From contig CP070758.1 in NCBI GenBank assembly GCA_020348925.1, positions 4,450,648-4,514,647 on the forward strand: DNA of 64,000 bases, written 5' to 3'. Both the position numbers and the translations under genes were made by a program. How positions within the stretch are numbered: position 1 is the first letter of the stretch; each line of letters starts with the position of its first letter. This stretch comes from Gemmatimonadota bacterium (lineage in GTDB: Bacteria > JBHIER01 > G020348925). The notes below the pieces were generated by a model. It ran no database searches. It was given only the letters and a program-made list of their open reading frames with translations, and was not told the origin of the DNA. Shown here piece by piece: positions 3,288-26,976 of the stretch.

Positions 3288-3305
3288 TTTGGCATGGTAT
3301 TCGCG
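3288..3305 (+). promoter_or_regulatory. sigma-54 (-24/-12) promoter 1
   Basis: TTGGCATGGTATTCGC has GG at 3291-3292 and GC at 3303-3304 with exactly 10 nt between, the invariant spacing of RpoN promoters. It follows an AT-rich tract and precedes a GEMM-I aptamer by about 60 nt. The same arrangement recurs at 5786, 10914 and 12666. Confidence 0.75.
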
Positions 3306-3361: not shown

Positions 3362-3512
3362 GCCGATAAGGGTAAATCCCGGGAAACCGGGGGGGGGGCA
3401 CAAAGCTGCGGATCAAAAGACAGTGGTGTTGGTCATATGCAGACCGAGTGTGCGATCATTGATCTGTTCCGAACAGACAGACACTGACTGGTCACGATAG
3501 CCGGACTGCCAA
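3362..3512 (+). ncRNA. GEMM-I (c-di-GMP) riboswitch, copy 1
   Basis: The core reads AAGGGTAAATCCC, then a GAAA-capped P2 (closed by ten G at 3389-3398), then GGCACAAAGCTGCGG at about 3395-3410, and ends in GATAGCCGGACTGCC near 3496-3510. These blocks match GEMM-I in order. The position aligned with G20 of the Vibrio Vc2 aptamer is G, which favours c-di-GMP over cGAMP. The P3 arm is much longer than in the other copies. I do not see a clear terminator, so the mode of control is open. It precedes a membrane-protein gene and an HD-GYP-type gene. Confidence 0.75.
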
Positions 3513-3643
3513 TGCTACCTGCAATTCTCGGTGGGTCTATCTTTTTGTACGAAGGGTCATGGGGGAGGTAGAGGACTCTCGCTGCATTCGACTCCGAGTC
3601 TGAAAGAGTCGTGTTGTGAGGGTGCGAGCAAGGAGGTACCGAA

Positions 3644-4221: not shown

Positions 4222-5304
4222 ATGGAGAGACTGAAAATTTTTGTCCTCCGTAATTTTGAAAAAATTCTCGTTACCTGTTTGCTTCTCATTGTGGTTGCGA
4301 CCCATCTGTTTGTCGTGCACAAGATGGTTTTTCTGAACATCTTCTTCCTGCCAGTCCTTGTTTCCGGTTTTGTACTCGGACGGAAAGGGGCAATCCTGAC
4401 CAGTTTGCTCTCAATTGCACTTGTCGTATATGTCTCGGTTATTTATCCCCAAACGTTTCAAGCGAGGGGTCTGGCCACATCGAGTGGAAATATCGATGTC
4501 GTTATGGGATTGATACTGTGGGGAGGTTTTCTTACGCTGGCCGGATATGTGGTGGGGACATTATACGAGCAGAAGGAGAAAAAGGTCCATGAGCTCCGCA
4601 GGGCGTACACAGGCATTTTGGAGATATTGACCAAATATCTGGAGTCGGCCGATCGCTACACAAAGGGTCATTCCTTGAGAGTGGCGGATACCTCCACGGA
4701 TATCGCTGCTGCCATGAATCTCCCTGAGCATGAAATCGAGAACGTTCGCGTTGCGGCGCTTCTGCACGACGTCGGAAAGATCGAAATCAGTACGGATATT
4801 ATTCACAAAGCCGCCAGTTTGACCGAAAGGGAGCGGAAAATCATCGAAAGCCATTCGGAGGGTGGAGCCAGAATTCTGGATTCAATGGGAGTCGTGTTGA
4901 AGGAGTCCATTCCCATTGTTTTAGCCCATCACCACTACTACCGGGACGTCGATTCGACGACAGGCAGCGGTCGAGATCAAATTCCATTGGGGGCGAGAAT
5001 CATCGCCGTGGCCGATGCTTTCGATGCCATGGTGACGGATCGACCGTATCGCCGGGGTAAGCCCGGATGGTTGGCCCTGGAGGAGATCGAACGCTGTGCC
5101 GGCGATCAATTTGATCCGGATGTGGTGAGGGCCTTCAAGTCGGTCTTTCCGGAGATCATGGAAGTAGAAACAGGTGGTACGGAAGCAGTGTGTCCCATGA
5201 TGGGGGATGTGGAGAGGGAAAAACGCGGCAAGAGACCTCTCAGGAAAACCACGGAATTACAGCATGTGATTGAAGAACGTGCCAAAATCTCACGTCCGGC
5301 TTGA
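4222..5304 (+). CDS. membrane protein with degenerate HD-GYP domain
   Basis: This 360-residue protein has about four hydrophobic segments in residues 10-120 and an HD domain at about 140-310. The HDVGK dyad lies near residue 182. Further histidines follow: one in IIESHSEGG and three in a row near 234. HD-GYP proteins hydrolyse c-di-GMP to pGpG or GMP. Here the block that should read HHERxDGxGYP reads HHHYYRDVDSTTGSGRDQ, so the GYP loop is missing although several metal-ligand histidines remain. Activity is therefore uncertain. The ribosome site AAGGAGGTGATTTGATATG is near perfect. It is the second gene behind riboswitch copy 1, an arrangement that would let c-di-GMP control a protein related to its own breakdown. 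Confidence 0.8.
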   Translation: MERLKIFVLRNFEKILVTCLLLIVVATHLFVVHKMVFLNIFFLPVLVSGFVLGRKGAILTSLLSIALVVYVSVIYPQTFQARGLATSSGNIDVVMGLILWGGFLTLAGYVVGTLYEQKEKKVHELRRAYTGILEILTKYLESADRYTKGHSLRVADTSTDIAAAMNLPEHEIENVRVAALLHDVGKIEISTDIIHKAASLTERERKIIESHSEGGARILDSMGVVLKESIPIVLAHHHYYRDVDSTTGSGRDQIPLGARIIAVADAFDAMVTDRPYRRGKPGWLALEEIERCAGDQFDPDVVRAFKSVFPEIMEVETGGTEAVCPMMGDVEREKRGKRPLRKTTELQHVIEERAKISRPA

Positions 5305-5785: not shown

Positions 5786-5803
5786 TTTGGTACGGTTTTC
5801 GCA
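5786..5803 (+). promoter_or_regulatory. sigma-54 (-24/-12) promoter 2
   Basis: TTGGTACGGTTTTCGC has GG at 5789-5790 and GC at 5801-5802 with 10 nt between. It lies about 60 nt upstream of riboswitch copy 2. Confidence 0.75.
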
Positions 5804-5865: not shown

Positions 5866-5968
5866 TGCTCGAAAAGGTAAACCTCGGGAAACCGAGGGGC
5901 ACAAAGCTGCGGGTCTAAAAACGGTGTGATGGTTTACTCCCGTTCATGATAGCCGGGCTACCGAAGCA
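5866..5968 (+). ncRNA. GEMM-I (c-di-GMP) riboswitch, copy 2
   Basis: All GEMM-I blocks are present: P1 strands TGCTCG and CGAAGCA, AAAAGGTAAACC, a 6-bp P2 with a GAAA tetraloop, GGGCACAAAGCTGCGGGTCTAA, a P3 arm, and GATAGCCGGGCTACCGAAG. The position matching Vc2 G20 is G. The 3' strand of P1 is also the left arm of the following terminator. Ligand-stabilised P1 would therefore block termination, which makes this a predicted ON switch for the 6.0-8.6 kb minor-pilin operon. Confidence 0.88.
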
Positions 5969-6000
5969 CACAAGGTGATCTTGGGTAGTCCGGTTTTTTT
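5953..6000 (+). terminator. riboswitch-controlled terminator of copy 2
   Basis: 5953-5966 pairs with 5980-5993 over 14 positions with one G-U wobble and one mismatch, followed by seven T (5994-6000). Its left arm is shared with the 3' strand of the aptamer P1 helix. Confidence 0.85.
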
Positions 6001-6023
6001 ATGGTTACCAGAGGATAGAATGG

Positions 6024-6443
6024 ATGATGCAGAGACCCGAAAAAAACAGAAGAAGGAATAAAGGAATGAGGGCGCGCCACCTTTTTGGTCAAAAAGGCTT
6101 TACCTTGGTGGAAGTGATGGTAGCCATGTTCATTTTCGGGATTTTGGCTACTGGAATAACAACATTAATGGCGGTGCTCATTCAAAACAACGATTTCAGC
6201 CGATGCATGACTGAGGCAACCACTCTGGCTGAAAGTAAACTGGAAGTCCTTCGAAACGTGGGTTACATGAACATTCCCGCAGGGTGGGGATCGGATGAGC
6301 CATCTCCTGACTATTTCAGGTCGTGGATCGTTGAAGAGAATGTTCCACAATCCGGGATGAAGCAGATAACGGTAGCGGTGAGTTGGTACAACTCAAAAGG
6401 ACAGACACATAGTGTGAAAATCTACACAATTTTACACCGGTAA
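6024..6443 (+). CDS. PilV-like minor pilin / pseudopilin (operon A)
   Basis: A 139-residue prepilin with the class III signal QKG^FTLVEVMVAMFIFG. PilD would cut after the Gly and the Glu sits at +5, as required. A 20-residue hydrophobic spine is followed by a small soluble domain. Length and motif fit PilV/PilI-type minor pilins, which prime pilus assembly at the tip. The start could be 6024 (AGAGG 9 nt upstream) or 6066 (leader MRARHLFGQKG). A 13-codon frame at 6020-6061 overlaps this region and could be a leader peptide. It is the first gene of a three-gene set with a PilW-like and a PilX-like protein, and its paralog lies at 12954. Confidence 0.85.
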   Translation: MMQRPEKNRRRNKGMRARHLFGQKGFTLVEVMVAMFIFGILATGITTLMAVLIQNNDFSRCMTEATTLAESKLEVLRNVGYMNIPAGWGSDEPSPDYFRSWIVEENVPQSGMKQITVAVSWYNSKGQTHSVKIYTILHR

Positions 6444-6461
6444 TTCTTGCGGAGCACGAAA

Positions 6462-7298
6462 ATGTTTTCGACCATTCGTTTCCATGAAAAGGGTGCATCG
6501 ATCATAGAATTATTGATTTGTCTTGTCATTGCAAGCGTTCTGGTGACGTTCATGACTCGATTCTTTGTAGCCCAGAACCGGATATCCCATATCGAGGAAC
6601 AAGTGAGTTTCATGCAGGAGAATGTACGATTGGCTATGGAGATCATTACGCGTGATGTGATGAATGCAGGGACCGGTATCCCATCTGGTGAAGGAGTCTT
6701 TCCCTTGATCCCGGGTGATGGGGCGTCCGGCAGTTCTGATTCACTCGTCATCATGGCCAATTTTGATTATCAGTATACAGAGTTGTTTGAGGACGAGCAA
6801 GTGGATCAAACGATACATGTGATGAATGCGACCGGATTTTACGTGGGTGGGTTACTGTACATTGAAGATTTTGATGGTGGAGCGTTTCATACGATAACAA
6901 GTATTACGTTGGACACACCAAAGGAGGATCAAATTACCGTTTCTCAACCATTGAATCGGCCCTTTCAAAAGGATGATACAGTAGTCTCGCCGATTGCGAG
7001 AGTGAGTTATGGGCTCACTTGGACTGAACAGGGTCGTCCGAGTTTGGTACGTACGGTCAAAGGCTCAGGGGCGAAGGTGTTAGCTGAGAACATTGAAGAT
7101 CTTCAGTTTTCATTCATCATGTCTGATGGGTCGGAGACTTCTCAACCTGCGGATATGACGGAAGTGCGGCTGGTAAAAATCCAGATGACGGCCCGTACGG
7201 AAAAAGCGGATTGTGAATTTGTTGATGACGGGTATCGTCGTCGGACGTTGGAATCTATAGTCCAACCGAGGAACTTGGATCTGCAATGTCATAAGTGA
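6462..7298 (+). CDS. PilW-like minor pilin (operon A)
   Basis: The prepilin signal EKG^ASIIELLICLVIASVL lies close to the N-terminus, with Glu at +5. A soluble region of about 250 residues follows, containing the strongly conserved blocks MANFDYQYT and GFYVGGLLYIEDF. These resemble PilW-type minor pilins. The ATG at 6462 is preferred because GGAG stands 7 nt before it; a TTG at 6447 would add five residues. The gene starts 18 nt after its PilV-like neighbour. By eye it is roughly 70 percent identical to the protein at 13370, so the whole operon was duplicated. Confidence 0.85.
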   Translation: MFSTIRFHEKGASIIELLICLVIASVLVTFMTRFFVAQNRISHIEEQVSFMQENVRLAMEIITRDVMNAGTGIPSGEGVFPLIPGDGASGSSDSLVIMANFDYQYTELFEDEQVDQTIHVMNATGFYVGGLLYIEDFDGGAFHTITSITLDTPKEDQITVSQPLNRPFQKDDTVVSPIARVSYGLTWTEQGRPSLVRTVKGSGAKVLAENIEDLQFSFIMSDGSETSQPADMTEVRLVKIQMTARTEKADCEFVDDGYRRRTLESIVQPRNLDLQCHK

Positions 7299-7324
7299 AG
7301 TTTAAACATCAAGGGGGTGTGTTG

Positions 7325-8611
7325 ATGTTAAAAAACAGAGTCGGAAACGAGCAAGGTGGAGTGCTGTTCATAGCAGCTTTTGCCACACTGATCATTCTCG
7401 TGTGCGGTCTGACGACGTATTACATGGCTACGACCGAATTGACCGCTTCCAGTGCAAGGTACGAAAAAGCGAAGGCTCACTATCTGGCCGAAGCCGGTGT
7501 TCAACGGGCCATTTCTGAGTTGACTTCAGGGATGAACGACGGCTGGGATGATGAGTTGATCGGTGCTGATGGCGAACTGGGCACGTGTGACGATGGTATT
7601 TTAAGTTTCGGGGCACAGGTTGACTGTTATGTGGATGATACCGATTCCCAGATACTGAACGATACCTATTCTCAGACACAAGAGGTGCCAATGAATCAGA
7701 CACCATGTGATTATTTGGTGGGTCACTACAGTGTACGATTAAGTGATGGCCGACCTGAGGATGAACGGAACGAGCCGTGCAACAGGGTGATTGTCAGATC
7801 GGTCGGGACTTCTGGGAATAATGTTAAAAAAGTGATCGAATCAGAATTTGAGACATTTAGCCTCATACGATCACCCTCCACGGCGTTCATTATTCCGGGA
7901 GCAGATACGACCGCATACCCCGATGCGGATTACAGCGGTCAATCCTGGGTCATTGATGGAAGCGATACGAACCCAGGGCTTGATCCCAATGATCCGAGTG
8001 ATGATGTCCCCGTTTACAATTCCGCTGTTTTCGGGATAGGTGTGAATGCAAATCCACAATCATTTATTGATAACTTGAGGGACAATCAAAGGGATCAGAT
8101 ACGAGGGGCTGGATTCGATAGCTCATCAGTCCCGCCAACACCCAGTATTGGCCAGCTGGACGTGAAGCTTAATTTGGATGAGACCGCCAGTAACATGATG
8201 AAGATAGCGGACCAGACTGTAGCCCCGGGAACATATTCTACTTTTACAGGATTTGGAAGCCCCAGTGACTACCAGGTCACCGTCTGTGACGGGGATCTGC
8301 ATCTCAGCGGACAGATACAGGGGTATGGTGTCCTGGTGGTTACAGGAGACTTTAAAATGTCCGGTTCAGGAACCTGGAACGGTTACATTATTGTCCAGGG
8401 TGATGTAGAATTTGCCGGAGGAGGAGATCAGTTTCTCCTCTATGGTTCGGTCATGTGTGGAACATCCTCAGGCTTGGGATGTTCCACCAAGTTTTCGATC
8501 AAAGGGAACGCCGATCTGTATTACTCCTCCTCGGAGATTGAGAAAGCGCGAGAAGGTGCAAAAGGCGTGGTGCAGAAATCCTGGCGGTCGAAACCAGCAA
8601 AGGAGTTATGA
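7325..8611 (+). CDS. PilX-like pilus protein (operon A)
   Basis: A protein of about 428 residues with an N-terminal hydrophobic segment (VLFIAAFATLIILVCGLTTY) and then KAHYLAEAGVQRAI, the PilX N-terminal signature. An acidic loop with GADGELGTCDDGILSFG and a long C-terminal domain ending in repeated strand-rich text (GYGVLVVTGDFKMSGSG) follow. PilX-type proteins sit in the minor-pilin tip complex. The ATG at 7325 is chosen because AGGGGG precedes it by 8 nt; an upstream GTG frame (7295) would overlap the PilW-like stop. It has two paralogs in the window (9314 and 14231). Confidence 0.83.
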   Translation: MLKNRVGNEQGGVLFIAAFATLIILVCGLTTYYMATTELTASSARYEKAKAHYLAEAGVQRAISELTSGMNDGWDDELIGADGELGTCDDGILSFGAQVDCYVDDTDSQILNDTYSQTQEVPMNQTPCDYLVGHYSVRLSDGRPEDERNEPCNRVIVRSVGTSGNNVKKVIESEFETFSLIRSPSTAFIIPGADTTAYPDADYSGQSWVIDGSDTNPGLDPNDPSDDVPVYNSAVFGIGVNANPQSFIDNLRDNQRDQIRGAGFDSSSVPPTPSIGQLDVKLNLDETASNMMKIADQTVAPGTYSTFTGFGSPSDYQVTVCDGDLHLSGQIQGYGVLVVTGDFKMSGSGTWNGYIIVQGDVEFAGGGDQFLLYGSVMCGTSSGLGCSTKFSIKGNADLYYSSSEIEKAREGAKGVVQKSWRSKPAKEL

Positions 8612-8703
8612 TCATGTTTGGTGGAATTCATTTTTAAGAGAGTTACTGTATTCTCTGCGCTCCGTCCGTTCGGAGTTGCGGATGAGAAGGGTGGAGAAAT
8701 AGA

Positions 8704-8783
8704 TACATCGAGAAACCGTGGGACAGAACGCTGCGGAATTCAAAACGGTTGCGTGTGTGAGGTTCAGACAGCCGAACCGCCGA
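8704..8783 (+). ncRNA. decayed GEMM-I aptamer (copy 5)
   Basis: The order of blocks resembles GEMM-I: CGAGAAACC, GTGGGACAGAACGCTGCGG, a variable arm, then CAGACAGCCGAACCGCCGAAG. The P2 hairpin is missing and the ligand-binding AAAG block reads GAAC. I infer an aptamer that no longer binds. The terminator that follows is intact, so transcription through it should stop. Confidence 0.5.
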
Positions 8784-8819
8784 AGTGTTTCGAGGACACT
8801 TCGGTCGTTCGGCTTTTTT
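8770..8819 (+). terminator. strong terminator after decayed riboswitch
   Basis: 8770-8788 pairs with 8796-8814 over 19 positions with one mismatch and one wobble, followed by six T. The left arm has the form of a GEMM-I P1 3' strand. Confidence 0.88.
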
Positions 8820-9198
8820 CTTGTCAGAGCCGTAGGCTTTGGTGCGATCACTGGAATATGCTTTCAATTTTTATCCAGGATTGTGGATGCCGCACTCCCT
8901 GCTGGTGCTCATCACATGCATCCTCTCTTGTGACCGTTGGGCGGAATCCGGTTGTGTATACACTGTCTCTTCAGGTCCCTGGCGAAGGAGCGCTGCACTT
9001 TGGGATACAGGGAGGCTGATGCGTCCGGTGTGGCGCGAGTCGGGGGGTGGAATCGTGCGGTTTCTGTCTGCAAAATGCGAGAATATATCGTCTGTTTGGT
9101 TCGGAAAGTTCCTCTTCCTCAAGTCTATGAACTTGATTATGCTCTTGAAATATAAGCGGATAGGCTGTTTCGTTTTCCAAAGCATTCGAACCGCTTTT
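8820..9198 (+). other. gene-free stretch
   Basis: There are short open frames but none with a plausible ribosome site, signal or family resemblance. I see no repeat or aptamer. It separates the decayed riboswitch from the sigma-54 promoter of the next gene. Confidence 0.4.
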
Positions 9199-9217
9199 TT
9201 TGGGCATGCACTTTGCG
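9199..9217 (+). promoter_or_regulatory. sigma-54 (-24/-12) promoter 3
   Basis: TTGGGCATGCACTTTGCG has GG at 9203-9204 and GC at 9215-9216 with 10 nt between, very close to the consensus TGGCACG-N4-TTGC. It lies about 95 nt upstream of the solitary PilX-like gene with no riboswitch in between. Confidence 0.72.
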
Positions 9218-9313
9218 TTATGACACAGGAGAGAACGTAACATCTGAGGCATGGGGAAACATCGAAGTTGTTACGGGTAGAGACAGACATTTTTACACGA
9301 GAGGGGGACAAAA

Positions 9314-10579
9314 ATGCCTTGGACTTTATATCGAAGGGAGTTGCAAAAACTCCGGCGGAGTGAAAAGGGTAGCGTTCTCTTGTTGGTGCTCTTCTGGGGC
9401 CTCATGATTTCGGTTCTCGGTGTCACGGCGTACTATGTGGCCAACACCGAGATTACGCAGTCCAGTAAGAAATACGAGATGGCCAAGGCCCTCTATTTGG
9501 CCGAAGGCGGTCTGGAGAGAGCGATTGTTGAGCTGAAGCTTGGGATCCGCAACGGATGGGACGATGAGATTGCGGGAGCGGACGGCGATTTGGGAACGGA
9601 GGATGACGGCATTCTGAGCTTTGGTGATCAAGTCAATTGTTACTCGCACGGCTATGGTGATGACTACGATCAGGGAGGGGTCGATTACTGGAATCGGTTC
9701 CTGGGGCATTACGATGTGAGGATCGTCGACGGCAGGAGGCCGGGCGAATCGCCGGAAAAGTGTAATCGGGTCATTGTGGGTTCCGATGGGGTCTCGACGA
9801 AAAACTTTGAACGGCGCGTGGAGGCGGAAGTGGAACTGTGGGAGCTCAAGCTTCCCGAAGCCCTCGTTTACATTGACGGGGGGACGGTCGATGCCAAATT
9901 CGATGGGAACGCCTTCCTTTTGGACGGCAAGGATACGAGTCCGGACGGTTCTCCGGGAGCCGGACCGAATGTCCCCGCGATTCTCGTCTCCAGTTGGCAG
10001 GATGCGAACACGATTAAGGAAGGAGTCTTTGATTATCAATGTGATAAGATATTGGGCGTGGGCAATCTGTACGGACACGATCCGTGCGATCCCAGTGTCG
10101 CCGATCTGGGTGGGTGGAATCCGAATGATTTCAACCCGAACAGGTTCAGGACCAAGGATCTTCCCAAGCTGGAAGAGATGGTGAATCACAGGATTCCTGG
10201 TGGAACCTACGCCGGGCAGTACACCATCGGTGCCCCTGACGAGTATTTGATTACGAAAGCGACAGGAAGCCTCCATATTACCGGCCCCCTGACCGGCTAT
10301 GGTGTGTTGATCGTTGATGGAGATTTTATCGTGACGGGTATGGCGCGATGGGACGGTCTCATCATCGTGAAGAACGAGGCGCGGATGTCCGGAGGCGGCT
10401 GCCAATTTCATCTCTACGGGACGCTCATCATACTGAATGAATCGGGTTTGGACAATGCCCAGGAGTTTCAGTTTTCCGGCCAGTCCGACGGCTTCTTCTG
10501 TAGAGAAAACATTGTCAGGATCCAAGATAGTGTCCAGACGCTGGTGGTCAACACCTGGCGACAGTCATCAGGGCTGTAG
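9314..10579 (+). CDS. solitary PilX-like pilus protein
   Basis: A 421-residue paralog of the PilX-like proteins at 7325 and 14231. It has the hydrophobic N-terminus, the motif KALYLAEGGLERAIVEL, the acidic loop GADGDLGTEDDGILSFG and a C-terminal domain with GYGVLIVDGDFIVTGMARWDG. A good ribosome site (GAGGGGGA) lies 7 nt before the ATG. PilV- and PilW-like partners are absent here. Together with the decayed riboswitch upstream this suggests the leftover of a third operon copy. It may still work with the other sets. Confidence 0.8.
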   Translation: MPWTLYRRELQKLRRSEKGSVLLLVLFWGLMISVLGVTAYYVANTEITQSSKKYEMAKALYLAEGGLERAIVELKLGIRNGWDDEIAGADGDLGTEDDGILSFGDQVNCYSHGYGDDYDQGGVDYWNRFLGHYDVRIVDGRRPGESPEKCNRVIVGSDGVSTKNFERRVEAEVELWELKLPEALVYIDGGTVDAKFDGNAFLLDGKDTSPDGSPGAGPNVPAILVSSWQDANTIKEGVFDYQCDKILGVGNLYGHDPCDPSVADLGGWNPNDFNPNRFRTKDLPKLEEMVNHRIPGGTYAGQYTIGAPDEYLITKATGSLHITGPLTGYGVLIVDGDFIVTGMARWDGLIIVKNEARMSGGGCQFHLYGTLIILNESGLDNAQEFQFSGQSDGFFCRENIVRIQDSVQTLVVNTWRQSSGL

Positions 10580-10912
10580 ACAATTTCTTTTCAGGCGTGT
10601 GCGCATGAAGTTTTGAATAACAGAGTGCATGCGTTCCGCGCCCCCTGCTGGTGAACTCATAAACATGGGAAGCCGTTTCCTTCTACGGGCGGCAGAGCTA
10701 TGATGCTGTCTGCCGAATAACCCAGAACGGGCAAAAAACCATTTTCAAGGCATCCGTCACTCTCTTCCCAGTAAAATTCTTGGGAACATGGCAATCACTT
10801 TTTTTTCAATCCAGGGAAGTACTACAACTCCACAAAACAATTGAAGATTATGAAAAGTGGGACGGTACACTTTGACTGTGGTCCCAGGAAATTTCCACCG
10901 GTACGGTCCTTT
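10580..10912 (+). other. gene-free stretch
   Basis: No coding region, hairpin terminator or repeat is convincing. It leads into the next sigma-54 promoter. Confidence 0.35.
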
Positions 10913-10930
10913 TTTGGTATGATATTAGCG
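10913..10930 (+). promoter_or_regulatory. sigma-54 (-24/-12) promoter 4
   Basis: TTGGTATGATATTAGCG has GG at 10916-10917 and GC at 10928-10929 with 10 nt between. It lies about 40 nt before a decayed GEMM-I leader. Confidence 0.7.
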
Positions 10931-10966
10931 TGACGGTATGCCTGCCTAAACGTGTCTTCGTCGATC

Positions 10967-11034
10967 GACAAAGGGAAACCTCGGGAGACCGGGCTGTTGA
11001 GGGAAATCCCTCGGTGGTTCGGCTTTCGTGTCGA
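10967..11034 (+). ncRNA. deleted GEMM-I leader with retained hairpin (copy 3)
   Basis: The 5' half of an aptamer is present (ACAAAGGGAAACCTCGGGAG) but runs straight into ACCGGGCTG, the P1 3' strand. About 60 nt of the core, including the AAAGC block and all of P3, are missing compared with copy 2. 10990-11004 can pair with 11009-11023 over 15 positions with about six G-U wobbles, the terminator-like hairpin of the family, but only three T follow. I infer that ligand binding is lost. Confidence 0.5.
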
Positions 11035-11135
11035 TGCCGTGAACGGTTTCGCCGAGTGCACTCTACAAGAGAAAGAAGGATAATGCATTCCAAAGCCCAG
11101 GAGTGTTTTCATTCCAAAAAAAGTGAGGTGGGATT

Positions 11136-12457
11136 ATGAAACCATCGACAGTCGTCCGGCTTTTGACTCTTTTCTTTTTCACCTTTCTGATCACAGGTTG
11201 TGAGAGGACTCCTGCCCCTTTTGCCCCGAGTTTTGAAGGATTGTCTCAGCTTGAAAAATCGCCGGAATCATACGCCTACCCCTTCGAATGGGGAACGTAT
11301 GGATCGGATGACGGGCAGTTCAGGAATCCGAACGGTATCGCACTGTGCTCGGATGGGTACATCTATGTGGCCGACCATTACAATCACCGCATTCAAAAGT
11401 TCACAAGCACGGGCGAATTTCTCATCAATTGGGGGGCTACGGACGAGGAGAAGGTCAGTTCAGAATGCCTTATGGTGTCGCCGTCGATGCGGCTGGGAAT
11501 GTATACGTTTCCGACTATTACAATCATCGTATTCAGAAGTATACTGGGTCCGGTTCTTACGTCACCAGCTGGGGAGGATACGGAACTGGGGATGGTCAGT
11601 TTCGGTATCCCACAGGGATCGCAGTGGGCGGAGAGGGACAGGTGTATGTGGCCGACTATTCCAATCATCGCATTCAGCAGTTCACCGGCTCGGGAGCATT
11701 CGTGCGGAAGTGGGGACGCTCCGGAACCGGGAACGGTCAATTTCGATTTCCACGTGGTATTGCGGTGGATGGGTATGGGGAGGTGTGCGTTGTCGAGACG
11801 GGAAATCATCGCGTCCAGAAGTTTACCGGTTCGGGGAGCTTTGTGACCGTGTGGGGTCGTTCCGGATCCGGAGAGGGCTGCTTTCACAATCCTGCGGATG
11901 TTTCGATAGATGATGGTGGCTGGGTGTATGTTGCGGATTCCGGGAATCATCGGATTCAAATATTTTCCACCTCAGGCGACTATGTGAACGGTTGTGGCGT
12001 GAGTGGATCAGGTGCGGGGCAGCTTCAGAATCCCAGCGGTCTTTTGGTGGACGGCACCGGAAACATCTTTGTCGCCGATTACAGCAATAACAGAATCCAG
12101 GTGTTCGGATCCCAGGTGGAACGTATTGAGGCCACCGTCGATTTCGATCCCAACACGCTCAACCTCAAGTCAAACGGCGCATGGGTCACGGTCTCCATAG
12201 AACTTCCTGAGGGCTATGATGTTGGAGACATCGAGAGATCGACCATCAGGCTTCATGACACGGTCCGGGCCGATGAAAAAGCGAAAGAGATCGGAGACGA
12301 TGACGGTGACGGTATTGCTGACCTAAACGTCAAGTTCAGCAGAGCTGCCGTCCAGAGCATTTTGGAGCCGGCGGAGGAAGTGGAAATCGTCGTCAGCGGC
12401 GGGCTTTCGGATGGCACTGCTTTTGTGGGTCAGGACATCATCAGGGTCAAAGGCTGA
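11136..12457 (+). pseudogene. NHL-repeat lipoprotein, frameshifted in a G run
   Basis: The protein starts with a lipoprotein signal (LFFFTFLITGC). About six NHL repeats follow, each with text such as GQFRYPTGIAV...VYVADYSNHRIQ, a six-bladed beta-propeller. A C-terminal domain has DFDPNTLNLKSNG, a form seen in exported proteins of candidate phyla. The frame breaks at six G residues (11431-11436). One extra G would restore WGGYGRGEGQF and give a continuous product of about 440 residues. Without it, translation runs out of frame to a stop at 11846. It sits between minor-pilin operons behind a sigma-54 promoter, so a pilus-linked adhesin role is possible. The lesion may be real, phase-variable or a homopolymer error. 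Confidence 0.8.
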
Positions 12458-12664
12458 CAGAAAGGACCTGAACCCCCGTCTCACGCGTTTTGCCCCAGGA
12501 TTGGGCAAATGCCACACGGACTGAATGTGTTGTTTGGAGAAGAAGACACGAATGTTGAGAGAGAGGCGAATAAACGGTTTTGGTCGATTACGGAAATTAG
12601 ATGTGCCGGAATGCGTTCGAGGAGGCAAAAATTATTTTGTGCGGATTCTGACAAAAAATTGTCT

Positions 12665-12682
12665 TTTGGCATAGTTTTCGCG
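12665..12682 (+). promoter_or_regulatory. sigma-54 (-24/-12) promoter 5
   Basis: TTGGCATAGTTTTCGCG has GG at 12668-12669 and GC at 12680-12681 with 10 nt between. It is almost the same as promoters 1 and 2. The aptamer starts about 50 nt downstream. Confidence 0.77.
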
Positions 12683-12733
12683 GTACTTGAATGAGCAAAT
12701 GAAGAGGAACCCTCTCATGAGAATGAGAGGAGG

Positions 12734-12827
12734 CGCACGATAAAGGTAAACTCCGGGAAACCGGGGGGCACAAAGCTGCGGGTCTAAGGACAGAGGTCAT
12801 GTCTATGACAGCCGGGCTGCCGAAGCG
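12734..12827 (+). ncRNA. GEMM-I (c-di-GMP) riboswitch, copy 4
   Basis: A complete and compact GEMM-I aptamer: P1 strands CGCACG and CGAAGCG, AAAGGTAAAC, P2 with a GAAA loop, GGCACAAAGCTGCGGGTCTAAG, a P3 arm whose CTAAG and CTATGA sides look like a tetraloop receptor, and GACAGCCGGGCTGCCGAAG. The base matching Vc2 G20 is G. Unlike copy 2, a further hairpin stands between aptamer and terminator, so the predicted response is reversed (OFF with ligand). Confidence 0.9.
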
Positions 12828-12872
12828 TTCGAGCCATGCGTTAAGCGGAATCCACTGCTTACGGTAGCCGGC
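12811..12872 (+). promoter_or_regulatory. candidate antiterminator hairpin of copy 4
   Basis: 12811-12819 (P1 3' strand) can pair with 12863-12872 using one bulge. A nested stem inside it is formed by 12839-12846 and 12857-12863. The right arm overlaps the left arm of the terminator at 12866. When ligand holds P1 closed this hairpin cannot form and the terminator is free; without ligand it should protect the transcript. Derived by hand pairing only. Confidence 0.5.
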
Positions 12873-12913
12873 TGTCGAGGCGTCCCAAAGGCCCTCGGGA
12901 ATCCGGCTTTTTT
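12866..12913 (+). terminator. riboswitch-controlled terminator of copy 4
   Basis: 12866-12871 pairs with 12903-12908 and 12876-12880 pairs with 12893-12897 across an internal loop, followed by six T (12908-12913). Confidence 0.75.
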
Positions 12914-12953: not shown

Positions 12954-13352
12954 ATGAGATTTCAAAGAAAAGTGAGAAGCATACATATCCTGTTTAAGGA
13001 GAGAGGGTTCACACTGGTGGAGATGATTGTGGCCATGTTTATTTTTGGTGTTCTGGCCACCGGGATGACGACGCTCATGGGGGTCCTCATCCAGAACAAT
13101 GAGTTTGCCCAGGATATCACCGTGGCCACGACGTGGGCCGAAAACAAGATGGAGGAGTTTGAAAACATCCCGTTCGAGAGCATTACGTCCGGTTGGAACT
13201 GGGACCTGCCGATAGCCGGATTCTGGAGGGTGTGGGAGGTGAGAGACAACATTCCTCAAGCGGGATTGAAGCAAATTACCGTCATGGTCATCTGGTTCGA
13301 CAGTAAATATCAATTTCACACCGTGAGTCTGTTAACGCTGAAGAGTACATAG
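12954..13352 (+). CDS. PilV-like minor pilin (operon B)
   Basis: A 132-residue prepilin with the signal KERG^FTLVEMIVAMFIFGVL, cleavage after Gly and Glu at +5. It is a close paralog of the protein at 6024, sharing for example TTLMGVLIQNNEF. It starts the second minor-pilin operon, about 40 nt after the riboswitch terminator. The ribosome site (AGGGA, about 9 nt away) is modest. Codon use in this operon looks richer in G and C than in operon A, so the two copies have drifted or arrived at different times. Confidence 0.85.
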   Translation: MRFQRKVRSIHILFKERGFTLVEMIVAMFIFGVLATGMTTLMGVLIQNNEFAQDITVATTWAENKMEEFENIPFESITSGWNWDLPIAGFWRVWEVRDNIPQAGLKQITVMVIWFDSKYQFHTVSLLTLKST

Positions 13353-13369: not shown

Positions 13370-14197
13370 ATGAGTATGTCTTCAATATGGAGAAGTGACA
13401 GGGGCACAACGATGGCGGAGATCCTCATCGTCTTGTTGGTCATGGGGATATTGACGACGGCCATGGCCAAGTTTTTTGTGGCCCAAAATCGGCTATCCCA
13501 TGTCGAAGAGCAGGTGGGGTTCATGCAGAAAAACGTCCGTTCGGCCATGGAGGTGATTGTTCGCGATGTCATGAACTGCGGCAGCGGCGTTCCCCTGAAT
13601 ATGGGCATCGATCCGTTGATTCCGGGCAATGGGGCGAGTGGAAGTCCGGATTCGATCGTTATCATGGCCAATTTCGATTATCAGTACACGACCTTGTTCC
13701 ACGATGAAGGACCAGATAACAACCAGCATGTGATGGATGCGACCGGATTTTATGTGGGGGGATTATTGTACATCGAGGATTTCAACGGCGGAGAATTCCA
13801 CACGATCACCAGCATTACGCTGGGCACAGCGAAGGGGGATCAGATCACAATCTCCAATCCCTTGAGCCGCACGTTTTATCAGATCGACACCATAGTATCA
13901 CCCATTGCACGGGTCAGTTACGGGCTCAGCTGGACCGATCCGGATCATCCCAGTCTGGTCCGTGGGGTGAAGGGAAGGGGGGCGAAGGTGCTGGCCAACA
14001 ACATCGAGGATCTGCAGTTCGCCTACATTTTAAAGGACGGGACGGAATCGGCCCAGCCGGCGGACATAGCCCAGGTACGCATGGTGAAGATCATGATGAC
14101 GGCCCGGTCGGACAAGCAGGATTGTGAGTTCGGCGGTGACGGCTATCGCCGACGGGCCTTGGAGTCCTTGGTTAAACCGAGGAATCTGGACTTATAA
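13370..14197 (+). CDS. PilW-like minor pilin (operon B)
   Basis: A 275-residue protein with a prepilin-like N-terminus (RG^TTMAEILIVLLVMGIL, Glu at +5). Its soluble domain shares the blocks MANFDYQYT, GFYVGGLLYIEDF and SPIARVSYGL with the operon A paralog. GGGAGG precedes the ATG by 5 nt. It should join its PilV- and PilX-like neighbours in a pilus-tip complex in the inner membrane before export through the secretin. Confidence 0.85.
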   Translation: MSMSSIWRSDRGTTMAEILIVLLVMGILTTAMAKFFVAQNRLSHVEEQVGFMQKNVRSAMEVIVRDVMNCGSGVPLNMGIDPLIPGNGASGSPDSIVIMANFDYQYTTLFHDEGPDNNQHVMDATGFYVGGLLYIEDFNGGEFHTITSITLGTAKGDQITISNPLSRTFYQIDTIVSPIARVSYGLSWTDPDHPSLVRGVKGRGAKVLANNIEDLQFAYILKDGTESAQPADIAQVRMVKIMMTARSDKQDCEFGGDGYRRRALESLVKPRNLDL

Positions 14198-14230: not shown

Positions 14231-15466
14231 ATGTTTAAGGGTATGATCTTCAACGAGCGCGGAGGCGTGCTCTTCGCCGTTGCCCTGTCGACCGTGGCCA
14301 TGGTTATGATGGGGGTAACGGCCTTTTATCTGGCCAATACGGAGGTGACGGCCTCCGGGGCGAAGTTTGAAAAGGCGAAGGCGCTCTACTTGGCCCAAGC
14401 AGGGCTACACCGGGCGATTGTCGAGATGACGAACGGTATGGATGACGGCTGGCAAGACGAGATCGCCGGAGCCGACGGTACGACGGGGACGAGCGATGAC
14501 GGGATCTTGGCTTTCGGCCCGAGTGTCGATTGTACGCCGTTTCAAAGCGGGTATTCCACGGGCGAGTCAGACGAGGTCTCAAGCAGCTATTGGAATCGTT
14601 ATCTGGGGCACTATGATGTGCGGATTGAGGACGGGCGCCGGCCGGGCGAGCAGAGCGGTGACTGCAATAAGGCCATTCTGGGTTCGGTAGGGGTCTCCTC
14701 GAAGGATTTCAGTACCAGGGTTGAGGCCGAGATCGAAGTGTTTGAGCTGCCCCCACCCCCCTCGCTGGTCTTCATGATCGGTCGGTACAACGAAACGGTC
14801 TTTCCCGATCCGTTTTTCGCCGGTCAGTCGTGGTGGATCGGAGGGGAGGATAGGAATCTCGATGATACAGGTGGACCGACCGTCGGGAAACCCGGCATCG
14901 GAACCAACGGCGTCGCTCAAGGTATTGTCGATGCACTGAATGATAATCAAAAGGACCAGGTCTCAGGAATCGGCTACGATCCGGCAGCGTCCCCACCCAT
15001 ACCGAGCGTTCAGCACGTGGACACTCAGGTGAATCTTCGGGAAATTGCTTACAAGCTCAAGAGCATGGCCGATAATATTGTTCCTCCGGGAACGTACGCC
15101 ACGTTCACAGGCTACGGGAGCCCCACCGATTACCAGATTACGGTGTGTGACGGAGACCTGCACCTGAGCGGCGACATTGAAGGATACGGGACACTGGTGA
15201 TAACCGGTGATTTCAAAATGAGTGGACAGGGCAAGTGGGTGGGCTACATCATATGTCTCAATCACGCCAGGTTCACCGGAGGAGGCACGCAGTTCCATCT
15301 GTATGGGACGTTGATGATCGGAAATTCGTCGGGTCTTGATTTACTGGCTGAGTTTGAGATCACGGGCAATGCTGATTTGTTATACAGTTCGGAGGCGATA
15401 GAGAAGACGAGGCTGGCTGTGAAAACCGTCGCGATAAAGAGCTGGCGGAGAATGGCCGCGAACTAA
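14231..15466 (+). CDS. PilX-like pilus protein (operon B)
   Basis: A 411-residue protein with an N-terminal hydrophobic spine, the signature KALYLAQAGLHRAIVEM and the acidic loop GADGTTGTSDDGILAFG shared by all three PilX-like proteins here. The C-terminal half (GYGTLVITGDFKMSGQG) is close to the 7325 paralog. AGGAGG precedes the ATG by about 9 nt. The operon ends with a clear terminator at 15486. Confidence 0.83.
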   Translation: MFKGMIFNERGGVLFAVALSTVAMVMMGVTAFYLANTEVTASGAKFEKAKALYLAQAGLHRAIVEMTNGMDDGWQDEIAGADGTTGTSDDGILAFGPSVDCTPFQSGYSTGESDEVSSSYWNRYLGHYDVRIEDGRRPGEQSGDCNKAILGSVGVSSKDFSTRVEAEIEVFELPPPPSLVFMIGRYNETVFPDPFFAGQSWWIGGEDRNLDDTGGPTVGKPGIGTNGVAQGIVDALNDNQKDQVSGIGYDPAASPPIPSVQHVDTQVNLREIAYKLKSMADNIVPPGTYATFTGYGSPTDYQITVCDGDLHLSGDIEGYGTLVITGDFKMSGQGKWVGYIICLNHARFTGGGTQFHLYGTLMIGNSSGLDLLAEFEITGNADLLYSSEAIEKTRLAVKTVAIKSWRRMAAN

Positions 15467-15485: not shown

Positions 15486-15522
15486 GTGGAGATTTGAACG
15501 AATTTTTCAAATCTCCACTTTT
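15486..15522 (+). terminator. terminator of minor-pilin operon B
   Basis: There is a perfect 13-bp stem (15486-15498 with 15506-15518) with a 7-nt loop, followed by four T. Confidence 0.8.
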
Positions 15523-20179: not shown

Positions 20180-23100
20180 ATGAAAACAATACGATCCGGT
20201 GTATTGATAGTGTTGGGAGCAATCGTCGCGTCCGGTCTCTTGCTGGGAGTATGGATCGGATGTGAGAAAAAAGGAGGCTTGGGCCCTCCGGTTGGGGAAT
20301 CCCATCTGACGATCGCATCGTTGACGACCAGTCTGTCATCGATTCAGACGGGTGGCCAGACCGCAATTATTACGGCCGTCGTCACAGATTCCATAGGTGA
20401 CCCTCGACAGGACGTGGTTGTTCTCTTTTCTACGACCGTAGGGAGCATCACATCACCGGCGACGACGGATAGTCTCGGTATGGCGCGGGCGACCTTAACG
20501 AGCGGATCCGCCTCTGGGCGGGCGAAAATTACGGCCAGTATCGAATCTGAGGATGTTTCCAAGGTCGTTTACGTTCAGATCGGTGCCGTGACCTCGAGAA
20601 TTACGGTGACGGCCTCCGAATTGGTGATCTATGCGAACGGAGCATCAACATCATTGATTACGGCGACGGTGTTCGATTCCGCCGGGCTGCCACATCCGGG
20701 TGTGGCTGTCACCTTCACCACGACAGCCGGCCAAGTCCTGCAGCCCACCGGCTGGACAGGACCCGAAGGAACGGTCACGACCCTACTGGTGAGTGCGGCC
20801 AGAGTGACTGATATTACGGCGACGGTGACGGCGGCGATCTCCGCGGGTTCCACGGCGAAGGGCTCCGATCCGTCGGATGCGGTTGCACTTCCGTCTCGGA
20901 AATCAGGGGGTAAAAAAGGAGTACAAGCGCGGAAGTCGCAAGCCGGCTCCGAGCTCGGGGTCGGTGCCAGGGGGAAAATTCTCAGCTCGGCTTTCGTCAA
21001 CGTCGCGTTCATTGGCGTGACATTGACGACGACGGTCGATCCCCCGCAGATTGCGGCCGATGAAGCAGAAGTATCCACCGTCACCGTCAACCTCAGGGAG
21101 ACCACAACAACGATCCCCATCCCGAACGCTCAGATTTTCTTCGGGACGAATCTGGGCACGATTGAGGGTGGCGCTGTGACCGATCTCAGTGGTGTGGCGA
21201 CAGTGGCCCTGACGAGCGGCTCTGATGCCGGAGAAGCTCACGTGAAAGTGTATTACGGAGCTCTCGTTGATACAGTATTCGTTACCATTACTGCGACGAG
21301 TGATTTGACGATGATTTTTCAGCTCAATGCGAATCCGACCACCCTTGATGCAAACGGTTCGAGCCAGACCGTCGTGACGGCAACGCTGAGCGATGCGCAG
21401 AACAATAATCCCGTCGTCGGAGTGAAGATCAATTTTAAGACGACCCTGGGAACAATCACATCATATGATACGACCGATGCCTTCGGTCTGGCCAGGGCGA
21501 CGCTGACCAGTGCCAGACGGAACGGGACAGCAGTTGTCACAGCGTCCTACGCATCGTTGTCGAAGGTGATCCAGATCCAGTTCAAGGGGGTGTCGCTCCA
21601 CGTTGCGGCCAATCCCACCAACCTGAGCGCCGATGGCACGACGGCATCCACAGTTGTTTTTACGCTGAAAGATGCGGCGAACATCCCCATCTTTGGAGAG
21701 CCGTGTTCCTGCTCATCTGAAATTGGGGTACTGTCTTCTGATCCGGTGTCACAGGGGTCGAGCGTTTTCGTCGATACGACCGATGTCAATGGCGAAGTGG
21801 TTGCGTATCTCAAGAGCGAGCAGCCGGGAATTGACATTGTCAAGGGTGAAGCGGCCGGGTCTCGCGACTCGACGGAGGTCCATTTTACCGGGTACGAATT
21901 CACCGTTCGCCCGAACAGATCTGAGATTAAGGCGAACGGGGATACGGTGACGGTCGTCGCCGAACTGAAAAACAGCTTCGGAGTTCCTGAGCAAGATGCG
22001 CATGTGCGGTTTGCTACGACCCTGGGAAGGATCACTTTCTCTGACATGACCGATTCCGAGGGCAAGGCGAGGGCTCTTTTGACCAGTGAATACACCTCGG
22101 GTACGGCCACAATTTCGGCGCACGCGACAACCGCCGAGGGACCTGTCACGGCTGAGACGACAGTGCTGATTCGTTCGGCCGCCTCAGACACGATTCTCCT
22201 GAGTGTTGATCCGAAAGTGGTCGCTGTGGGTGGTGGGAAAAGCGGCACGGCAACGCTCACTGCTCTCGTGTTGGATGGCTGGAATCCGGGCAACCCGGTT
22301 TCAAATGTCCTTGTATCTTTTACGTTTGTCGAAAATCCTGGGAACGGAGAGTACATCAATCCGGGGACGGCGACAACGGATATGAGTGGGAAAGCTGTGA
22401 CGAGCTTCGTGAGTGGTGCCATTGCCAGTGAATTTGAGGGAATCAAGATCATCGCGTCGGCGGATGGCATCGTTTTTTCGGATACGGTCAAGCTCACCGT
22501 CGCAGGAGCCCCTGCCTCCGTTGCCGTCGGCTACGACACCGATTCCTTTACCGACAATGAGAACGGAACGTATACCCTGTCGGTGGCAGCGATCGTCGCC
22601 GACGCCAACGGCAATCCGGTTGTGGACGGTACCTGGGTCTATTTCAGCTCATTCCCGAATATAGGGGTTGTCGAAAGCCCGGTTCAGACGGAAGATGGTA
22701 TCGCCTCGTCCCAATTGAGCTACCCGGCGAGTTCGGTCGGTGAGGATATCACATTATACGCCGAGAGCGGCGGTGTCGAGGGGAATAAATCGTTCGGTTT
22801 GCCCGGACCAGCCGGCAATGCCAACAAAGTGGAATTGAATATCCTCGCGTCGAATATCCTCGCCAACGGCTTGTCGACAACTCTGGTCGATGCTCTTGTG
22901 ACCGATGTTTTCAACCGTCCGGTCGGCGGGGCCATGGTTTATTTCGAAGTGCTTGATGGTCTGGGCGCTGTGACGAATGTGGCTTTTACGGTGACCGACC
23001 CCACGCGTGACGATTTCGGAGTCGCGCATGCAACCTACACGAGCTATGCGAGTCCTGTTGACATCATCGTGTCCATACGCGCCTATGTTCTCGGTGCCGC

Positions 23101-24436
23101 GGAGGATGACATCATCGAAATTTTTCTGAGGGGCATCACCCTTGAGACAACCGCCTATCCCGACTCGCTTCCGGCTGACGGAACGAGCCAAGCGACCATT
23201 ACCACAATGGTCAAGGAGACTGTCAGAGAGATTCCTATAGCTTTTGGGACGGTCAGTTTTGGAACTGAAATGGGGACGATTGTCGGTTCGGCTGTAACTG
23301 ACGCGAGCGGTGAGGCCACTACGATTCTCACCAGCGATACAAGGATTGGGATGACCAGAGTGCTTGTGAGCTACGGTGAGACGCTCCTTGATTCCACTTT
23401 TGTGAAATTTACAGGACACGGTCCGTCGCAGATCGTAATTGTCTCCGCTGAACCGGATTCAATTGGCGTCATGGGAGGCGGTTACAACGAGTCTGCGGTT
23501 TTCGTGTTCGAGGTGAGAGATGACAGGGGGCGGCCGATCAGCTCCGATAATCCGCAGCAGGTCTCCTTTACAATGAACGGAGTCCCGCTGGTCAACCCCC
23601 CAGGAGGGCATGTGCCGTTTCTCGTACCTGAGAGTGCCACAACTGACCAATTGGCTCGTGTCTCAACGGTCTTGAACAGTGGTTCGAAAGCGGGAGCCGT
23701 TGAAGTTGTCGCTTCCCTTGGTGCAATCCGGTCGACCCCGGTTCGAGTTGCGATTCACGGCGGTTCACCGGATGGTGACCATTTCAGTATTGCGGCCGGT
23801 CACGTCAATATTGCTGGCCTCATCTACTCGGGAATCATTGATACCATCACAGCCTTTGTCGGCGATCGCTACGCCAACCCAGTGCCTGAGAATACGGCCG
23901 TCTATTTTACGACGTCCGGAGGGATCATCGAGGGTTCGGCGGTCACAGATCGGCTGGGAACGGCGAGCGTGGTTCTGATATCCGCGGATCCAAGACCGGT
24001 GGATGGTTGGGTCACCGTGACGGCCCAGACCGTCGACGGTGAGGGCCAGACGATTGAGGATACTATGCCTATTCTCTTTTCCGGGTCGACCGTCATTTCG
24101 AATGTGACACCGGGCACTTTTAATATCCCACAGGGCGGATCTCAATCTTTCCAGTACACTGTCTCGGATAGGAATGGGAATCCTTTGACCGCAGGTACTC
24201 GAATCAGAGTTACGGCCACAAAGGGATTGTTGGGGGGAGCGGTTGATTTCAGATTGGCCGATACTCAGTCTCCGTTGGCAACACAGTTTTCCTTCGTGCT
24301 CTCTGATCCGGACGCCACCGACGAAGCACCGACGGAGGGTTCGACAATTACCATAGAAGTTCTCACGAGTGATGTGGATTGTCCGCCGTGTCCCAGCGGG
24401 GACGCAACGATTTCTATTTCGGGAAGTATCGACTAA
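20180..24436 (+). CDS. large Big_1 (Ig-like) repeat surface protein
   Basis: A 1418-residue exported protein with an N-terminal signal ending WIGC, possibly lipidated. About twelve Ig-like Big_1/invasin-type repeats of roughly 100 residues follow. Each repeat carries a recurring TDSxGxAxATLTSG motif (for example TTDSLGMARATLTSG and MTDSEGKARALLTS). Such repeats form rigid rods on the cell surface in intimin/invasin adhesins. It starts 64 nt after pilQ with AGGGAGG upstream and so likely belongs to the pilus operon. No catalytic domain is visible. A role as pilus-linked stalk or adhesin is inference. Confidence 0.85.
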   Translation: MKTIRSGVLIVLGAIVASGLLLGVWIGCEKKGGLGPPVGESHLTIASLTTSLSSIQTGGQTAIITAVVTDSIGDPRQDVVVLFSTTVGSITSPATTDSLGMARATLTSGSASGRAKITASIESEDVSKVVYVQIGAVTSRITVTASELVIYANGASTSLITATVFDSAGLPHPGVAVTFTTTAGQVLQPTGWTGPEGTVTTLLVSAARVTDITATVTAAISAGSTAKGSDPSDAVALPSRKSGGKKGVQARKSQAGSELGVGARGKILSSAFVNVAFIGVTLTTTVDPPQIAADEAEVSTVTVNLRETTTTIPIPNAQIFFGTNLGTIEGGAVTDLSGVATVALTSGSDAGEAHVKVYYGALVDTVFVTITATSDLTMIFQLNANPTTLDANGSSQTVVTATLSDAQNNNPVVGVKINFKTTLGTITSYDTTDAFGLARATLTSARRNGTAVVTASYASLSKVIQIQFKGVSLHVAANPTNLSADGTTASTVVFTLKDAANIPIFGEPCSCSSEIGVLSSDPVSQGSSVFVDTTDVNGEVVAYLKSEQPGIDIVKGEAAGSRDSTEVHFTGYEFTVRPNRSEIKANGDTVTVVAELKNSFGVPEQDAHVRFATTLGRITFSDMTDSEGKARALLTSEYTSGTATISAHATTAEGPVTAETTVLIRSAASDTILLSVDPKVVAVGGGKSGTATLTALVLDGWNPGNPVSNVLVSFTFVENPGNGEYINPGTATTDMSGKAVTSFVSGAIASEFEGIKIIASADGIVFSDTVKLTVAGAPASVAVGYDTDSFTDNENGTYTLSVAAIVADANGNPVVDGTWVYFSSFPNIGVVESPVQTEDGIASSQLSYPASSVGEDITLYAESGGVEGNKSFGLPGPAGNANKVELNILASNILANGLSTTLVDALVTDVFNRPVGGAMVYFEVLDGLGAVTNVAFTVTDPTRDDFGVAHATYTSYASPVDIIVSIRAYVLGAAEDDIIEIFLRGITLETTAYPDSLPADGTSQATITTMVKETVREIPIAFGTVSFGTEMGTIVGSAVTDASGEATTILTSDTRIGMTRVLVSYGETLLDSTFVKFTGHGPSQIVIVSAEPDSIGVMGGGYNESAVFVFEVRDDRGRPISSDNPQQVSFTMNGVPLVNPPGGHVPFLVPESATTDQLARVSTVLNSGSKAGAVEVVASLGAIRSTPVRVAIHGGSPDGDHFSIAAGHVNIAGLIYSGIIDTITAFVGDRYANPVPENTAVYFTTSGGIIEGSAVTDRLGTASVVLISADPRPVDGWVTVTAQTVDGEGQTIEDTMPILFSGSTVISNVTPGTFNIPQGGSQSFQYTVSDRNGNPLTAGTRIRVTATKGLLGGAVDFRLADTQSPLATQFSFVLSDPDATDEAPTEGSTITIEVLTSDVDCPPCPSGDATISISGSID

Positions 24437-26909: not shown

Positions 26910-26976
26910 GGTGACAGCGTGATGGAACAAGAGATGATTGACTGAAAAGAAATCTGATGGGATAAGAGATGATATT

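Follow-up and report, generated by a model that had tools for sequence, protein, structure and literature searches.

The locus considered here lies in a 64,000-nucleotide stretch of a Gemmatimonadota genome (contig CP070758.1, 4,450,648-4,514,647; hereafter the window), in which two leaders with putative aptamers for cyclic di-GMP (c-di-GMP), referred to as copy 2 and copy 4, each precede an operon encoding PilV-, PilW- and PilX-like minor pilins. An earlier note had proposed that the two leaders respond to c-di-GMP with opposite signs, copy 2 being switched on and copy 4 switched off by the ligand. We analyzed this proposal by searches of the genome (5.04 megabases, one contig) and by RNA folding. 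Coordinates are positions in the window, and those of other leaders are marked "genome".

Minor-pilin operons and their leader aptamers

The two operons and the aptamers in front of them are arranged as follows.

5866-5965, + strand: c-di-GMP-I aptamer of copy 2 (RF01051, 73.6 bits, E-value 1.5e-12)
6024-6443, + strand: PilV-like prepilin, set 1 (N-terminal methylation motif; 52% identical to 12954-13352)
6447-7298, + strand: PilW-like protein, set 1 (67% identical to 13370-14197)
7295-8611, + strand: PilX-like protein, set 1 (49% identical to 14231-15466)
12735-12824, + strand: c-di-GMP-I aptamer of copy 4 (RF01051, 80.8 bits, E-value 2.6e-14)
12954-13352, + strand: PilV-like prepilin, set 2 (52% identical to its set 1 counterpart)
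13370-14197, + strand: PilW-like protein, set 2 (67% identical to its set 1 counterpart)
14231-15466, + strand: PilX-like protein, set 2 (49% identical to its set 1 counterpart)

These identities bear out the paralogy of the two operons claimed in the earlier note. The PilV-like proteins match the N_methyl/TIGR02532 models, which supports their identity as prepilins, and genes of this kind are confined in the genome to these two sets. The PilW-like and PilX-like proteins match no specific family model above cut-off and are named from gene order, size and an N-terminal hydrophobic segment. A third, partial set is represented by a pilW gene with an ON-type leader at the contig end (genome 5036690).

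Aptamers were called with the Rfam covariance model RF01051 (gathering score 35 bits), which has ten matches genome-wide, nine of them exceeding the gathering score and copy 4 scoring highest. Copies 2 and 4 are both full length (model positions 1-87), and the Rfam alignment, from which ligand-contact residues were taken and numbered after the Vc2 aptamer, shows that the equivalents of G20, A47 and C92 are kept in both, as are the motifs GG(U)AAA, CACAAAGC and CCGAA. A GAAA tetraloop closes helix P2 in both copies; its receptor in helix P3 (CUAAG/CUAUG) is intact in copy 4 and carries one change (CAUG) in copy 2. The presence of two intact riboswitch aptamers, as the earlier note had it, is confirmed by these data: each leader carries a genuine class-I c-di-GMP aptamer, which is predicted to bind c-di-GMP. 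Ten GGDEF matches in the genome make it likely that the organism produces this ligand. We consider it improbable that the actual ligand is a different dinucleotide, cyclic AMP-GMP (c-GAMP), acting through the same switching logic. GEMM-I relatives that control pili in Geobacter do bind c-GAMP (PMC9262584), and both leaders also match the GGC-variant model RF03167. Nevertheless, both retain the G20/A47/C92 equivalents and score better with RF01051 (80.8 vs. 67.9 bits for copy 4 and 73.6 vs. 60.8 bits for copy 2), and the GGDEF matches likewise speak for c-di-GMP.

Several features of the remaining aptamers were recorded alongside. The weak third RF01051 match in the window (copy 1, 3362-3514) is degenerate, with a run of ten G at 3389-3398 in P2 as a possible slippage site, and the gene behind it (4222-5304) encodes a protein whose HD domain gives an HD_5/HD-GYP-like match and seems to have lost the GYP motif. 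In four aptamers (genome 504621, 1065017, 526582 and 1972330), P3 is short and lacks the tetraloop receptor usually found there. Several ON-type leaders stand before genes for secreted, repeat-rich proteins, and leader g526 (genome 526582) has a terminator without aptamer overlap and without an evident antiterminator, a layout that points to neither ON nor OFF.

Folding of the copy 2 leader

A single hairpin follows the copy 2 aptamer and overlaps its 3' end.

5951-5995, + strand: copy 2 terminator hairpin of ON design (left arm 5951-5962, right arm 5984-5995, T7 at 5994-6000)

The stem comprises 12 unbroken base pairs, and its left arm (AGCCGGGCUACC) is made of the 3' strand of aptamer helix P3 (5953-5959 in the Rfam pairing) together with the ligand-site CC (C92/C93 at 5961-5962). 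The earlier note was right that this aptamer strand is the left terminator arm; its assignment to P1 did not hold, as position 5953 forms the 3' side of a base pair in P3. In full-length ensembles the terminator reached -53.7 kcal/mol, compared with -39.0 kcal/mol when the aptamer was enforced, and the barrier to refolding of the ligand-free aptamer was 4.1 kcal/mol.

Cotranscriptional folding was simulated base pair by base pair with a Gillespie program in C and simplified Turner-type energies; the aptamer was either left without ligand ("apo" runs) or held fixed once formed, standing in for bound ligand ("locked" runs). Copy 2 terminated in 23 of 24 apo runs vs. 1 of 24 locked runs. A coarser cotranscriptional model based on macrostates predicted the correct sign for copy 2 when the upstream leader was omitted. 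For other leaders, and when rate constants were high, its behavior was faulty, probably owing to matrix-exponential stiffness and missing intermediates; it was not used for conclusions. The copy 2 layout is common to six other leaders of the genome, so that ON appears to be the rule in this organism.

The predicted ON response of copy 2 was thus borne out by the shared layout, the energies, the low barrier and the simulated termination, and its assignment as a transcriptional ON switch of the pilM type (described below) is strongly supported by these models. Without ligand, the terminator arm would capture the aptamer 3' strand; with c-di-GMP bound, this strand would be held in the aptamer, the terminator blocked, and pilVWX set 1 transcribed.

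Pairing alternatives and origin of the copy 4 leader

The copy 4 leader contains a longer series of mutually exclusive pairings.

12806-12827, + strand: strand A (P3 3' strand, C92/C93 at 12820-12821 and the following bases)
12842-12861, + strand: spacer hairpin TAAGCGG..CTGCTTA, which competes with the A:B toehold
12856-12877, + strand: strand B, antiterminator partner of A, with the palindrome AGCCGGCT at 12866-12873; resembles a decayed A
12866-12913, + strand: terminator B:C of OFF design (12866-12871 paired with 12903-12908, T6 at 12908-12913), which can coexist with the aptamer

The palindrome of B serves twice, as part of A:B and as left arm of the B:C terminator, in which AGCCGG of B pairs with strand C (CCGGCT, 12903-12908) directly before the T6 tract; the sharing of one arm by antiterminator and terminator had been correctly recognized in the earlier note. 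Pairing of the aptamer 3' strand with the terminator-arm region also stood up, with two corrections: the strand is again P3 3' strand plus CC instead of P1, and the pairing is longer than the proposed 12863-12872 arm (approximately 12806-12827 with 12856-12877). The A:B antiterminator would take up C92/C93 and so exclude both aptamer and terminator. Among the leaders of the genome, only copy 4 has two such hairpins after the aptamer.

The hairpin at 12811-12872, on whose stability relative to the terminator the earlier note had staked its proposal, proved the stronger of the two in isolation (A:B, -37.5 vs. -22.7 kcal/mol). For the transcript ending at 12912, ensemble energies were -77.9 kcal/mol with A:B, -65.1 with the aptamer, -64.9 with the aptamer plus B:C, and -64.1 with strand A paired to C. 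At equilibrium the advantage of about 13 kcal/mol that A:B has over the folded aptamer favors the antiterminator without ligand; within the aptamer-bound ensemble, the terminator accounts for about 70%. Dinucleotide shuffles served as controls for the complementarity of A to downstream sequence (-34.7 kcal/mol vs. -20.3 +/- 2.9 in shuffles), which was reached in 0 of 500; the aptamer-destabilizing effect was reached in 4 of 300 shuffles, and 9 of 1000 equaled the terminator stem that abuts the U tract.

The A:C pairing (7 base pairs, 12810-12816/12902-12908) would make both leaders ON switches if ligand binding blocked a terminator formed in this way. This complementarity is present, and C, together with the adjoining U tract, looks similar to the arm that forms the ON terminator in copy 2. 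We regard this reading as very improbable, since A:C encloses 85 nucleotides, lies 14 kcal/mol above A:B and offers no gain over the aptamer combined with B:C.

In the proposed OFF mechanism, strand A of the ligand-free transcript would be drawn into the long A:B antiterminator and set 2 transcribed, whereas bound ligand would keep A in the aptamer, leaving B free for C, so that the transcript terminates. Simulated effects of the ligand on copy 4 pointed in this direction and were small. With faster elongation, A:B formed in 10 of 40 apo vs. 5 of 40 locked runs and the terminator in 19 of 40 vs. 25 of 40; with slower elongation, A:B was reached in 8 of 44 runs without ligand and in none of the 28 locked runs.

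Several results weigh against a strong OFF response. Termination under slower elongation was nearly independent of ligand (12/44 apo vs. 11/28 locked), and the locked leader terminated in just 40-60% of runs. Escape from the ligand-free aptamer is slow, with a barrier of 10.6-14.3 kcal/mol in the energy model, put at 10.6-11.5 kcal/mol by a further set of barrier graphs, and a first-passage rate to A:B of 7e-8 per time unit, vs. 1.4e-6 in copy 2 (about 0.07 and 1.4 per second, respectively, assuming that one unit is one microsecond). Moreover, A:B and B:C are predicted from a single sequence. Such figures would suit a leaky or near-constitutive attenuator, in which the copy 4 aptamer folds regardless of ligand, B:C forms at a fixed rate and only copy 2 switches; a helix at 12767-12770/12819-12822, which masks both the toehold and the CC that contacts the ligand, fits the same picture. 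We hold this to be unlikely, yet the most serious of the alternatives. Copy 4 has the best-scoring aptamer of the genome, its A:B complementarity is far above chance and would be hard to explain if never used, and the model, which lacks pausing, Mg2+ and polymerase, may overstate some barriers: leader g1972, with a plain ON architecture, gives 12.2 kcal/mol by the same estimate, and the high values may therefore partly be an artefact.

The OFF assignment of copy 4 remains the best supported, because of its architecture, its equilibrium energies and its match to the published Cd1 layout (see below). The earlier prediction of OFF is upheld in these three respects and weakly in the cotranscriptional simulations. 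A common sign in both leaders, which the earlier note had named as contrary to its proposal, was not what folding gave, yet the kinetics allow a flat response of copy 4. We conclude from these models that OFF is likely for copy 4, ON very unlikely and a flat response possible, the predicted amplitude of switching being small. That copy 2 (ON) and copy 4 (most likely OFF) are c-di-GMP-I transcriptional riboswitches of opposite sign before paralogous minor-pilin operons is, in our judgment, probable.

The B region resembles A (AGCCGGGCUGCCGAAGCGU vs. AGCC-GGCUGUCGAGGCGU), with 9 of 2000 shuffles as good. When the A strands of eight other leaders were combined in a weight matrix, its best downstream match was B (2 of 2000 shuffles); the matrix gave no score for the terminator arms of these leaders, whose sequence is complementary to A. 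On this evidence, which comes from one sequence, B appears to be a decayed second copy of A, and the OFF design probably arose from an ON design via partial tandem duplication of the aptamer 3' strand and terminator. The first (ON) terminator would have lost its U tract and become the antiterminator of the duplicated second terminator. A search for close relatives of this genome found none at the level of genus or order; the genomes retrieved as relatives share only the domain, which places the organism in a poorly sampled lineage, and the single named database match is a Desulfobacterales protein with 23% identity.

Genomic surroundings and known counterparts

Promoter-like elements precede both leaders, and a hairpin closes the copy 4 operon.

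5788-5803, + strand: sigma-54-type element TGGTACGGTTTTCGCA upstream of copy 2 (10/12 consensus positions, GG/GC spacing of -24/-12; pattern match only)
12667-12682, + strand: sigma-54-type element TGGCATAGTTTTCGCG upstream of copy 4 (8/12 positions; pattern match only)
15486-15518, + strand: terminator-like hairpin at the end of the copy 4 operon, ahead of pilMNOPQ (stem of 13 base pairs, then CTTTT)

A score of 10/12 is expected by chance about 0.006 times per 260 nucleotides. Sigma-54-type elements (TGGCAT..GTTTTCGCA) stand 57-78 nucleotides ahead of five of the ten c-di-GMP-I aptamers, far above background density: in the window at 3290-3305 and at the two sites listed, and, for the aptamers at genome 344728 and 2273272, at a distance of 57-77 nucleotides. 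The window also contains a gene for a sigma-54 activator (26938-28008).

Decayed riboswitch remnants were found at 8690-8819 and 10968-11024. The first retains a strong terminator (8770-8819), which now ends operon 1, and is followed by an orphan PilX-like gene (9314-10579), as if from a decayed third V/W/X set. Directly after pilMNOPQ, a gene at 20180-24436 encodes a protein of 1418 amino acids with nine Big_1/invasin-type repeats. Control of pilMNOPQ by copy 4 was considered and rejected, since the T-run hairpin and a gap of 240 nucleotides intervene.

The pilMNOPQ genes include the only secretin found in the genome. If both switches behave as proposed, set 1 would be favored at high c-di-GMP and set 2 at low c-di-GMP, both serving a single machine; the exchange of pilus-tip sets put forward in the earlier note would follow only if copy 4 truly switches and the V/W/X proteins form tip complexes. 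The full scenario, in which partial tandem duplication reversed the sign, with AGCCGGCT serving both hairpins, so that c-di-GMP switches a single pilus machine back and forth between two paralogous minor-pilin sets, is offered tentatively, as a possibility that we rate below even.

Among known systems, copy 2 is closest to pilM, the c-GAMP/GEMM-I riboswitch of Geobacter metallireducens, likewise a transcriptional ON switch upstream of pilus genes, in which the 3' strand of the aptamer, including the C that pairs with the ligand, becomes part of the terminator (PMC9262584). Copy 2 has a comparable interval of about 20-25 nucleotides from aptamer completion to terminator arm. In contrast to pilM, copy 2 has a G20-type c-di-GMP pocket and controls minor pilins rather than pilM. 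Copy 4 resembles Cd1, a c-di-GMP-I riboswitch published as a transcriptional OFF switch, which precedes the flagellar operon of Clostridioides difficile (PMC9262584, PMC6200980). The Cd1 strands P, A, T and H form a T:H terminator that coexists with the aptamer and an A:T antiterminator that sequesters the ligand-contacting C (PMC9262584), and copy 4 has the same order in A, B and C. It differs in controlling minor pilins, in a T strand that looks like a duplicated A strand, and in its slow refolding in the model. A c-di-GMP-I aptamer also stands directly before a PilV-like gene in a distant genome (G042, L048), where the PilW relative is 33% identical; that leader combines 13 base pairs of A:T complementarity with a separate terminator, i.e., a P-A-T-H OFF layout, and unlike copy 4 its antiterminator uses the P1 3' strand only.

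ON and OFF GEMM-I switches with similar aptamers are already known (PMC9262584). In C. difficile, class I c-di-GMP riboswitches are mostly OFF, with Cdi-1-1 positive, and class II riboswitches are ON (PMC6200980), so that both signs of response to one ligand occur within one genome, pilus genes included, as here. In the open-access literature we found such cases within one genome and no case of opposite c-di-GMP responses on paralogous operons. Unlike in C. difficile, both signs would be carried here by the same aptamer class, before paralogous operons 4 kb apart. What would be new, if confirmed, is the reciprocal pair on neighboring paralogous operons, together with an apparent sign reversal by duplication. 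A single signal would then exert reciprocal control over the minor pilins used by one shared pilus machine. Sister leaders of the same genome would, in addition, illustrate a simple route to reversing the sign of a riboswitch.

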